A stretch of DNA of 41,425 bases, from IMG/VR virus record IMGVR_UViG_3300036851_000391, positions 1-41,425 of that record; one strand, 5' to 3'. Shown one piece after another: positions 3,712 through 6,532 of the stretch (positions are counted from its first letter, which is position 1; each line of letters opens with the position of its first letter). The notes below the pieces were generated by a model, which saw nothing but the letters and a program-made list of their open reading frames with translations, was not told where the DNA came from and did not search any database. The DNA comes from a virus. The position numbers and the translations under genes are program-made.

Positions 3712-4127
3712 GTCAGATTCCGTACAACCCGATGCACGCGCTTCGAAAGCCGGTTTCAGAACAGCGCATGCATGAGATTCTTGAGAAGCACAAGCCGAAA
3801 GTTGAGGTGGTGCCAACTGAACCCGAATGTTCGCCAACAGCCGATGGCGGGAATACTTCCGTAGCCGCGGGGGCCGCATCCGCTGAAAACACGCTGCCCG
3901 CGCTTGTCTGGCAAAAGGTGAATGACTGGCTGATGCGCACCCAATGTGGGCGCTATCGTTGCCGCAAGTACGTTCCGGGTGAATCGATCGATGTCGATGC
4001 CAGACCCCCGAAGTACCAGCTCGAGATGCTGGTGGCGGATTCCTGGTTCTATCGTTGCGGCCCACCGCTTGATTCGTTCAAAGAGGCGAGGGCTGCTGCG
4101 CAGAGGCATCTGGAGGCGCAGAAATGA
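3708..4127 (+). CDS. Hypothetical early protein
   Basis: 139 residues from ATG 3708 (MSQIPYNPMHALRKPVSEQ). A helical N-terminus is followed by a low-complexity Thr/Ser/Ala linker, then a compact C-terminal domain with LPALVWQKVNDWLMRTQCG and Cys/Trp/Tyr residues. It starts ATGA-coupled to the preceding frame and ends ATGA-coupled to the nuclease gene. It follows the DnaA boxes directly, so a role in replication is possible, but that rests on position only. Confidence 0.6.
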   Translation: MSQIPYNPMHALRKPVSEQRMHEILEKHKPKVEVVPTEPECSPTADGGNTSVAAGAASAENTLPALVWQKVNDWLMRTQCGRYRCRKYVPGESIDVDARPPKYQLEMLVADSWFYRCGPPLDSFKEARAAAQRHLEAQK

Positions 4128-4405
4128 TGCCCCGCTACCGCGCGCGACGTGACAAGCCAGAACCGGGCATCGTCGAGGGTCTCGAAGCAATCGGCTGGGA
4201 AGTGGTGCGTCTCAATTCTGGCGAGCTGCCAGACCTTCTGTGCCGCGAACGCTCTTCAGGGCGACTCGCGCTGCTCGAGATCGAGAGCGGTCACTACAAG
4301 CGGCGACGTTCGGCCTCGCAACGGGAGATGCTTCAGCGCTGGATAATTCCAATAGTGAACAATTTCGACGAGGCCGCGAGGGCTTTGGGAGCAAAGATTT
4401 CATGA
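4124..4405 (+). CDS. VRR-NUC-like PD-(D/E)XK nuclease, C-terminus replaced by homing-gene insertion
   Basis: 93 residues. The layout GLEAIGWEVVRLN...ELPDLLC...LALLEIES...SASQREMLQRW fits small phage VRR-NUC nucleases: acidic PD, then E-x-(E/D)-x, then a Gln-rich helix. The usual catalytic Lys after the Glu appears as Ser (EIES), so activity is uncertain. The final residues NNFDEAARALGAKIS are encoded just before a homing endonuclease gene, and a second version of the same tail follows that gene (4929-4982). The end therefore appears to have been supplied by the insertion. Confidence 0.6.
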   Translation: MMPRYRARRDKPEPGIVEGLEAIGWEVVRLNSGELPDLLCRERSSGRLALLEIESGHYKRRRSASQREMLQRWIIPIVNNFDEAARALGAKIS

Positions 4406-4932
4406 CAGAAACGTGGCGGCCCGTGGCCGATTTTGAAGGATACGAGGTATCGGATCAGGGTCGAGTGAGAAGTCTTGATCGGTACGTTGATGTGCCAACC
4501 AGATGGGGTGGCGTGGCGAGACGATTTCAACGCGGCCGGATACTGAAGGCTTGCGCAGATAGCGATGGGTACTTGCTCGTCGGATTGCCGGGTTCTTTTT
4601 GCGCAAAAGTGCATCAGCTAGTGCTGGAGGCTTTTATTGGACCGAGACCACCGGGGCATGAAAGTGCGCATCTGAATGGCATCAAAGCCGATAATCGTTC
4701 GGACAACCTCGTTTGGGCAACTGCCGCGGTAAACACCGCCCATAAAGTCCTTCATGGGACTATCCCGAGGGGAAGTGCGCAGTATCACGCCAAGCTAACT
4801 GAAGCGGATGTTTCACGACTTCGCGAAGCGGCCTTGTTTGGCGCCAATCGCTATGTGCTGTCGGCCATCTACGGCCTTAGTCGCGGCTCCATTGATGATG
4901 CGATATCTGGCAGAACGTGGAGGCATGTGTAG
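4402..4932 (+). CDS. HNH homing endonuclease with NUMOD4 domain
   Basis: 176 residues from ATG 4402, ATGA-coupled to the nuclease gene. Residues 4-27 (WRPVADFEGYEVSDQGRVRS) are a textbook NUMOD4 motif. The central KVHQLVLEAFIGP...HLNGIKADNRSDNLVW is an HNH_3-type nuclease core. The C-terminus (YHAKLTEADVSRLREA...YGLSRGSIDDAISGRTW) is a helix-turn-helix DNA-binding module. Family members cut allelic DNA lacking the insert and spread by repair. It is less GC-rich than its neighbours and sits precisely in the 3' end of a nuclease gene, both signs of recent mobility. Confidence 0.9.
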   Translation: MTETWRPVADFEGYEVSDQGRVRSLDRYVDVPTRWGGVARRFQRGRILKACADSDGYLLVGLPGSFCAKVHQLVLEAFIGPRPPGHESAHLNGIKADNRSDNLVWATAAVNTAHKVLHGTIPRGSAQYHAKLTEADVSRLREAALFGANRYVLSAIYGLSRGSIDDAISGRTWRHV

Positions 4933-4982
4933 TGCGCACGTTCGAGGATGCGGCGCGCGCGCTCGGAGCGAAGATCGCATGA
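4929..4982 (+). pseudogene. Displaced original 3' end of the VRR-NUC gene
   Basis: GTA GTG CGC ACG TTC... to TGA 4982 encodes VVRTFEDAARALGAKIA, nearly the same as the IVNNFDEAARALGAKIS that now ends the nuclease upstream of the homing gene. The downstream copy uses GC-rich codons like the phage, and its TGA still overlaps the next ATG as ATGA. It is best read as the original tail, stranded when the homing gene brought a replacement tail. Translation from GTG 4932 is not excluded. Confidence 0.7.
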
Positions 4983-5173
4983 GACCCAACCCCGCACTGC
5001 ATGCCGAGATCGAGCGCCTTGCGCAACTGAAGGCCCAGCTTCCCACCGTCAAGGAGCTCGCGGAAAAGTACGGCGTGCATGAGGCAAGCGTCCGCCGCCT
5101 CATCTTCGCGGCGGTCAAACGCCACAGCACTGCGCGAATCGCGCATTCCACATCGAGCGAGCTGATGCGATGA
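4979..5173 (+). CDS. Small helix-turn-helix protein
   Basis: 64 residues from ATG 4979, overlapping the stranded nuclease tail as ATGA. LPTVKELAEKYGVHEASVRRLI is a convincing helix-turn-helix (resolvase or sigma-like). The stop overlaps the next start (5170). A small DNA-binding regulator in the rightward operon; target unknown. Confidence 0.65.
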   Translation: MRPNPALHAEIERLAQLKAQLPTVKELAEKYGVHEASVRRLIFAAVKRHSTARIAHSTSSELMR

Positions 5174-5880
5174 TCACAGCGAAGGGGTCCTGCTTGAATC
5201 GTACGCTCTGGCTTCTGTGTCTTGGCTTCGCGCTCGCCATTTTCGGCTCGTGGGTGAATCTTGCGCATGCCGGTGTGGTGAGCTGTTCGGCCGGAACCGC
5301 TGGCGGAGGGCTCTCGAGCTGCACGGGCGTGCAGTCGTGCCTCACGACACTGTCGCCCGAAACCCTGGTGCGCACGCTCTCGGGACCGGCGCATATCTGG
5401 CAGCGCTGGGATGTGATTCCCGCGAACGGCACCGTGCGGCTGTGTCAGCCCGATGGCTGGAACAGCAAGCAGGCATCTGGGGTTATCGTGGCAGCGCCGC
5501 CGCCCGTAGATCCCTCGCCGCCCACGGCTCCCGAAGTGCAGGATTTCAGCGCCCTCTGGTGGGCGCCAGTCACTACGAACACGGACGGCACTCCTGCGAA
5601 GATCACCGGCTATCGGCTCTATCTTGGTACCTCACCGGGGGTCTACGCTGCACCCATTCCGGTGCAGGGGTTTCGCTATTCGCTGGCCCAGCTGGCACCA
5701 GGACGGTATTACGCGGCGGTGACGGCCCAGGATGAGGCGGGACGTGAGAGCGCCAAGACCGCCGAAATCTCATTCGAGGTGAAGCCCGCTCAGACGCCCG
5801 AGCCACCAAAGCAATTCACCTGCTCCACTCCGCTCGTCACCGAGAACAAGACTGTGACGCTCACGTGCACCCTGCAATGA
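5170..5880 (+). CDS. Secreted fibronectin type III protein
   Basis: 236 residues. The N-terminus has a basic start, a hydrophobic core (LWLLCLGFALAIFGSW) and a signal-peptidase I site after LAHA (about residue 34). The mature protein has a Cys-rich region, a Pro-rich linker (PPPVDPSPPTAPEV) and one fibronectin III-like domain (GYRLYLGTSPGVY ... YYAAVTAQDEAGRES, about 115-205), ending in a Cys-containing strand. A periplasmic or surface protein in an early/middle phage operon is unusual. Superinfection exclusion or surface alteration is possible, but this is inference. It is coupled on both sides by overlapping stops and starts. Confidence 0.7.
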   Translation: MITAKGSCLNRTLWLLCLGFALAIFGSWVNLAHAGVVSCSAGTAGGGLSSCTGVQSCLTTLSPETLVRTLSGPAHIWQRWDVIPANGTVRLCQPDGWNSKQASGVIVAAPPPVDPSPPTAPEVQDFSALWWAPVTTNTDGTPAKITGYRLYLGTSPGVYAAPIPVQGFRYSLAQLAPGRYYAAVTAQDEAGRESAKTAEISFEVKPAQTPEPPKQFTCSTPLVTENKTVTLTCTLQ

Positions 5881-6233
5881 CGTACCGCGACGCTATGAAG
5901 CAGGCCGAGCGCGAATACTTCACTGCGCTCATGGTGGAAAGCCAGTGGAACCACAGCGTTGCCGCCAAGGCAGCCGGCCTGAACCGCACGTCCATGTACC
6001 GCGTTCTAGAGCGCAACGGCATCACGCGCGCCGCCGCTCCCGTGATACAGAAGCGTCCCGCCACCGCCGCTCCCTGCAGAAAACCGATCAAGCGCCTGAA
6101 GGTCGATCCTCGGAGAATCCTGGATCTCAAGGTGGCGGGATTTGTGCCGAATGACATTTCTGGCTGGCTCCAGGTCACGCCGAGCTATGTGCGGCAGATC
6201 CTGCGAGGGGCCGCTGTGCGGCAGGTGTCGTGA
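5877..6233 (+). CDS. Fis-type helix-turn-helix regulator
   Basis: 118 residues from ATG 5877, ATGA-coupled to the secreted protein. Residues about 8-45 (YFTALMVESQWNHSVAAKAAGLNRTSMYRVLERNGI) contain a Fis/NtrC-type (HTH_8) domain. After a Pro/Ala linker, a second possible helix-turn-helix (NDISGWLQVTPSYVRQIL) follows. It lies shortly before the packaging genes, so it is a candidate activator of late transcription. Confidence 0.7.
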   Translation: MTYRDAMKQAEREYFTALMVESQWNHSVAAKAAGLNRTSMYRVLERNGITRAAAPVIQKRPATAAPCRKPIKRLKVDPRRILDLKVAGFVPNDISGWLQVTPSYVRQILRGAAVRQVS

Positions 6234-6532
6234 TGCTGACGCTCCCGATGCGCTTTGCGAGCTCGTGGCAGCGCCTGTTCTGCAACACCTGTCGCGAGGA
6301 GACCATCCATCGTAGGAACGCCTGTATCCATTGCGGCGCGTCTCCGAGTGCAAAGCAGGTGGCTGTATCTGCTCAGTACAACGGACGTGAGATGGTGTCT
6401 CGTCTGACAGACGCTCAGCGAACAGAAGCGCGCCGGATGTTCAATGCTGGGACACCGCCGAAGCTCATTGCGACGAAGCTTCATGTTTCGCCGTCCTCAG
6501 TGTATCGACTCAATCCGCTGACGCGCGGATGA
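6233..6532 (+). CDS. Zinc-ribbon plus helix-turn-helix regulator
   Basis: 99 residues from ATG 6233 (TGATG overlap). An N-terminal zinc ribbon, CNTCREETIHRRNACIHCG, with two C-x2-C knuckles, is followed by a C-terminal helix-turn-helix (TPPKLIATKLHVSPSSVYRL). Its place as the last gene before the terminase makes it a good candidate for the late-gene activator, perhaps acting at the GCTGA repeats found before the portal and capsid genes. Confidence 0.65.
   Translation: MLTLPMRFASSWQRLFCNTCREETIHRRNACIHCGASPSAKQVAVSAQYNGREMVSRLTDAQRTEARRMFNAGTPPKLIATKLHVSPSSVYRLNPLTRG

Follow-up and report, generated by a model that had tools for sequence, protein, structure and literature searches.

Duplicated gene ends on either side of free-standing NUMOD4-HNH genes point to probable homing with a replacement gene end in phages

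We analysed the whole of IMG/VR virus record IMGVR_UViG_3300036851_000391 (41,425 bases, here called the window), in which a free-standing HNH endonuclease gene sits between two copies of the 3' end of a small nuclease gene. The arrangement probably reflects homing in which the endonuclease gene brings along a replacement for the gene end that it severs, as in fungal mitochondria, and this would be a recurrent process in phages that affects both ends of genes. The locus is composed as follows:

4124..4405, + strand: host nuclease gene including the attached tail; 93-aa candidate for a Hjc/VRR-NUC-like PD-(D/E)xK fold (open reading frame, relatives, AlphaFold2)
4355..4405, + strand: tail 1, attached to the nuclease, VNNFDEAARALGAKIS followed by the stop; proposed replacement tail from the HNH gene
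4402..4932, + strand: complete HNH endonuclease gene, 176 aa (Pfam, PHROG and PDB matches)
4408..4587, + strand: NUMOD4 motif, HNH protein residues 3-62 (Pfam)
4606..4737, + strand: HNH_3 catalytic domain (Pfam; I-HmuI alignment)
4932..4982, + strand: tail 2, second, unattached (orphan) copy of the 3' end of the nuclease gene, VRTFEDAARALGAKIA followed by the stop; proposed native tail left behind
4979..5173, + strand: next gene, 64-aa HTH-like protein (open reading frame; a similarly placed small HTH-like frame is present in contig L009)

The nuclease gene (4124-4405) ends in NNFDEAARALGAKIS, the C-terminus of its translation reads WIIPIVNNFDEAARALGAKIS, and its stop codon overlaps the start of the HNH gene (ATG 4402) in an ATGA. 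The HNH gene is terminated by TAG at 4930-4932, and tail 2 opens with GTG CGC ACG, the GTG having one base in common with the HNH stop. The stop of tail 2 in turn overlaps the start of the next gene, ATG 4979, by ATGA. A sequence-only reading had described this succession of tail, HNH gene and second tail with its ATGA linkages, and its coordinates and statements proved correct when checked against the sequence and the open reading frames.

The HNH protein exceeded the Pfam gathering scores for NUMOD4 (1.7e-12; 47.8 against 23.4 bits) and HNH_3 (4.2e-11; 42.8 against 24.8 bits), and matched the PHROG family HNH endonuclease (2.5e-40) and the structure of I-HmuI (PDB 1u3e, 5e-7). Residues H90 and N111 align with the catalytic H75 and N96 of I-HmuI; D74 of I-HmuI aligns with A89, at a position that is variable among the aligned relatives. 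A conserved GRxWRHV is present at the C-terminus of the complete protein. By its domains and catalytic residues, the protein is a free-standing I-HmuI-like NUMOD4-HNH_3 endonuclease, predicted to cleave the HNH-free allele and to home in mixed infection.

The 93-aa nuclease protein had no match among Pfam and PHROG families. Related proteins are encoded by viral contigs and by Sinorhizobium phage phiLM21; two scans with two alignments yielded no confirmed relative in bacterial genomes, and plasmids contained none. An alignment of eight sequences proved too diverse to serve for a pattern scan. An AlphaFold2 model built from eight sequences reached a mean pLDDT of 82.8, and its best fold matches, which were weak (best E 0.015), were archaeal Holliday junction resolvases and the VRR_NUC domain. 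The profile match to Hjc-type resolvases had a best E of 0.003. The PD of the nuclease motif is present, and the lysine of ExK is replaced in the window (EIES). This lysine is lacking throughout the window's branch of the nuclease (EIES, EVES, EIDG, EVNG); phiLM21 and prophage relatives keep EVKT. In the model, the final strand and helix are encoded by the duplicated tail, so that loss of the tail would probably spoil the fold.

The two tails are identical at 36 of 51 nucleotide positions and in 11 of 17 residues; of the differences, 6.5 are synonymous and 9.5 non-synonymous (pS 0.51, pN 0.25). Their alignment score was reached by 3 of 20,000 random 17-residue peptides from the six frames of the window, a draw that may include the tails themselves. 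As noticed in the sequence-only reading, tail 1 (GC 0.51) is AT-richer and resembles the HNH gene (0.55), as against 0.64 for the nuclease body and 0.69 for tail 2. The best GC change point within the nuclease gene fell at 4343 and was not significant (permutation p = 0.09), and the AT-richness of tail 1 is a weak guide to tail origin.

Uninterrupted relatives of the nuclease gene occur in L009/L010 (66% identity), L104 (61%) and L002/L011 (51%). All of these, together with L106, L107 and more distant relatives, carry a single tail and no HNH gene at this position. In L009, the gene order is that of the window: nuclease, ATGA, small HTH-like gene, FN3-like gene. It had been predicted that HNH-free relatives would be joined near 4355 to 4936, and in L009/L010, L104 and L002/L011 the single tail is indeed joined there. 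Near the nuclease relative, phage contig L104 also has a match to the Rfam sRNA Betaproteobacteria-1 (RF02932, 92.6 bits, positions 652-775). Identity to these relatives did not distinguish the tails: both are equally far from L009 (30/51 each), and with L104 tail 1 agrees at 33/51 and tail 2 at 32/51 positions. The closest HNH-free relatives found stand at 66%, too far for sequence comparison to mark the native tail of the window; composition hints weakly that tail 2 is native and tail 1 foreign.

The recurrence of the arrangement was assessed in loci from phages and viral contigs with an HNH gene of this family, of which 184 were left after removal of near-duplicates. Six-frame comparisons were made between the 220 nt preceding each HNH gene and the 150 nt following it. 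In 14 of the 184 loci, the window included, the end of a neighbouring gene is duplicated across the HNH gene, which amounts to about one in 13 (about 7-8%) of the NUMOD4-HNH genes examined. The arrangement, treated as a one-off in the sequence-only reading, is hence recurrent, and it occurs at 5' gene ends as well:

Tail, window: small nuclease
Tail, L197/L165: GH19-like endolysin
Tail, L246
Tail, L216
Tail, L116: EndA/NucM-like nuclease, HNH gene antisense
Tail, L153: virion morphogenesis protein, HNH gene antisense
Head, L264/L186: lysin B
Head, L236: NinB
Head, L184: terminase
Head, L169: terminase
Head, L230
Head, L304: AAA-type
Head, L200: YqaJ
Head, L170: ERF

These six tails and eight heads are the loci judged convincing after reading each match; L266 and L275 were excluded as of low complexity or doubtful. 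Scores of at least 55 were observed 14 times, compared with 0.19 expected from mispaired flanks; across the survey the mispaired-flank expectation was about 0.2-0.8. Shifted positions within the same locus are a harsher control than mispaired flanks, and here 16 placed matches at the true position compare with 0-6 (mean 2.3) at the nine shifted ones. In this shifted control, the downstream flanks of L217, L297 and L320 scored 60-63 against sequence some 400 nt ahead of the HNH gene, which could be due to chance or to longer elements.

At five of the 5' loci (L230, L304, L200, L170 and L264), the HNH frame is fused in frame to the stranded head and the host gene restarts at or just past the HNH stop. 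The HNH protein may be translated there from the old start of the host gene. In L116 and L153, antisense HNH genes lie at host-gene 3' ends and the tails are duplicated there too, so that the pattern is independent of gene direction. The phage collection contained no close HNH-free DNA relatives of L116, L246 or L304. Pooled over the 14 loci, the end copies differ mainly at synonymous sites (pS 0.80, pN 0.23, the pN being biased down by the choice of pairs by protein similarity), which indicates that they diverged as working genes in separate genomes. Even with this bias, synonymous sites near saturation mean long separate coding histories.

Two of the 5' cases bear on which end is foreign. 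In L184 and L169, identity is 89% across the leader, the HNH gene and the replacement head of the terminase, as opposed to 72.5% for the stranded native terminase heads and 77% for the upstream gene. Identity jumps sharply at the left boundary of the element (Fisher p 7e-5 and 1e-6). This comparison indicates joint transfer of the HNH gene and its replacement end. In L264/L186, a complete lysin B follows the HNH gene, and the new head of this lysin B has a six-residue insert, RNAxGL, also found in Corndogvirus YungJamal. The stranded head is devoid of the insert and matches Cheoctovirus Brocalys; in Brocalys and in Cheoctovirus SiSi the lysin B genes are uninterrupted and lack the insert. Hence the two lysin B heads of L186 belong to different mycobacteriophage groups and differ in ancestry. 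For both pairs, it is simplest to suppose that the HNH gene arrived with a new end and that the old end was left. These comparisons support the view that the attached end is foreign and the stranded end native in L184/L169 and L186.

For the window, we propose the following course of events. A free-standing NUMOD4-HNH gene would have entered the 3' end of the phage nuclease gene and would have carried a related version of the last ~17 codons of the nuclease. The C-terminus of the nuclease would thereby have stayed complete and folded, and its ATGA link would have been retained, now to the HNH gene. The recipient's own tail, severed, would remain as a fossil downstream of the HNH stop, where it still provides the ATGA link to the next gene. 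We infer that HNH-free alleles are nicked or cut by the enzyme close to the tail. Repair would then copy the 3' end of the donor nuclease gene and the HNH gene, by homology on the left, and on the right the broken tail of the recipient would be joined at the HNH stop or close to it. Such a gene may be mobile at present. The earlier proposal of an HNH gene arriving with its replacement tail is supported by the single-tail relatives and the independent loci; the polarity that it gave to the two tails of the window leans on composition, a weak indicator.

It is unlikely, yet still conceivable, that the polarity is the reverse, with a native nuclease body and tail 1, and with recombination at the nuclease 3' end having brought in the HNH gene together with tail 2 and the downstream gene from another phage. 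In its favour, the peptide IPIVNNFDEA is common to tail 1 and L002, and the region 4979-6500 is itself variable. L022, a close relative and the nearest one by terminase (90%), retains in the corresponding region just an HTH homologue of 43%, and an unrelated nuclease (DUF1064; L022:4100-4610) occupies the slot of the window's nuclease before this related HTH gene, which it also overlaps by ATG. Because L022 has DUF1064 there, the nuclease slot appears to have been exchanged non-homologously. Against reverse polarity, tail 1 has the AT-richer composition of the HNH gene and tail 2 is GC-rich and phage-like, a weak argument. In addition, the element in L184/L169 comprises the HNH gene and the end of the working gene, and the stranded ends are the diverged, native ones.

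Homing with a replacement end also accounts for the data better than an ordinary tandem duplication of the gene 3' end with an HNH gene landing between the copies. There are two copies in direct orientation, as such a duplication would leave, and we nevertheless consider it very improbable. No HNH-free relative with both tails was found among the relatives examined; uninterrupted relatives with both tails were what the sequence-only reading had named as the mark of tandem duplication. Moreover, the pooled pS and pN over the 14 loci are unlike those of a recent duplication or a decaying orphan, and the copies in L186 come from different phage groups.

That the end of the nuclease gene resembles the sequence behind the HNH gene by chance has a negligible probability: the match in the window spans only 17 codons, but phase, stop and ATGA context are alike, mispairing would be expected to give the window's tail score in 0.09 of the 184 loci, and the arrangement recurs elsewhere in the survey with matches of up to 52 codons. 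Just as implausible is an HNH gene inside a self-splicing intron with tail 2 as alternative 3' exon, since both tail copies end in a stop and the HNH gene touches both coding copies and leaves no room for an intron core, even though introns can carry HNH genes of this family, as with I-HmuI. The window had no Rfam intron match even at E = 1 and 12 similar loci had none at the gathering threshold; a group I or group II intron around the HNH gene was rejected as far as Rfam allows.

In fungal mitochondria, mobile ORFs (mORFs) form gene hybrids, the hosts being atp6 in Allomyces macrogynus, atp6, atp9, cox2 and nad3 in Glomus, atp9 in Rhizopus and cox2 in Mortierella (PMC3630166). As in the phage locus, the endonuclease gene follows the 3' end of the host gene, a foreign C-terminus is fused to the latter, and a diverged native C-terminus lies downstream (63.5% DNA identity in Glomus atp6, 69-71% here) (PMC3630166). 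Fungal mORFs encode LAGLIDADG or GIY-YIG enzymes in organelles, whereas the phage loci have NUMOD4-HNH enzymes in dsDNA phages and ATGA-type overlaps. Furthermore, the phage survey, unlike the fungal mORFs, includes replacement of 5' ends (heads), with several HNH genes fused in frame to the old start. A duplication of the fungal atp9 N-terminus with a free GIY gene has been mentioned (PMC7487136). According to the available parts of the sources, free-standing phage homing endonuclease genes (T4 seg and mob; I-HmuI-like HNH in Skunavirus) lie at gene boundaries like that of the window, and marker exclusion and co-conversion of flanks are known for them (PMC2988022, PMC12724721). They either split genes (mobE in nrdA, mobA in gene 60) or are intergenic, and those parts describe no spare host-gene end (PMC2988022, PMC12724721). 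The homing genes of ICP1 mark recombination edges between phages, as here, and the accessible portion of that account describes no duplicated host-gene ends (PMC10448857). Searches of open-access papers found no report of the duplicated-end pattern in phages; subscription papers may differ. The mechanism as such is known from fungal mitochondria.

Homing with a replacement end would explain how free-standing homing genes can enter essential phage genes (terminase, lysin, recombinase, nuclease) non-lethally and without an intron, and selfish HNH genes seem to survive partly by giving the host gene a spare end. The stranded end is a readable fossil that shows the insertion site, the original sequence of the recipient and sometimes the donor group. 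With duplicated ends at about 7-8% of the examined NUMOD4-HNH genes, many uncharacterised enzymes can be given proposed target sites, and a mechanism of fungal organelles becomes testable in ordinary laboratory phages. We lean slightly towards the wider view that phage HNH homing genes commonly invade coding ends instead of neutral gaps and survive by bringing along a second start or end for the host gene. Where they enter at a 5' end, they would take over the host start codon as a fusion and give the host gene a new head, and through homing the terminal segments of proteins would be continually reshuffled among phages.
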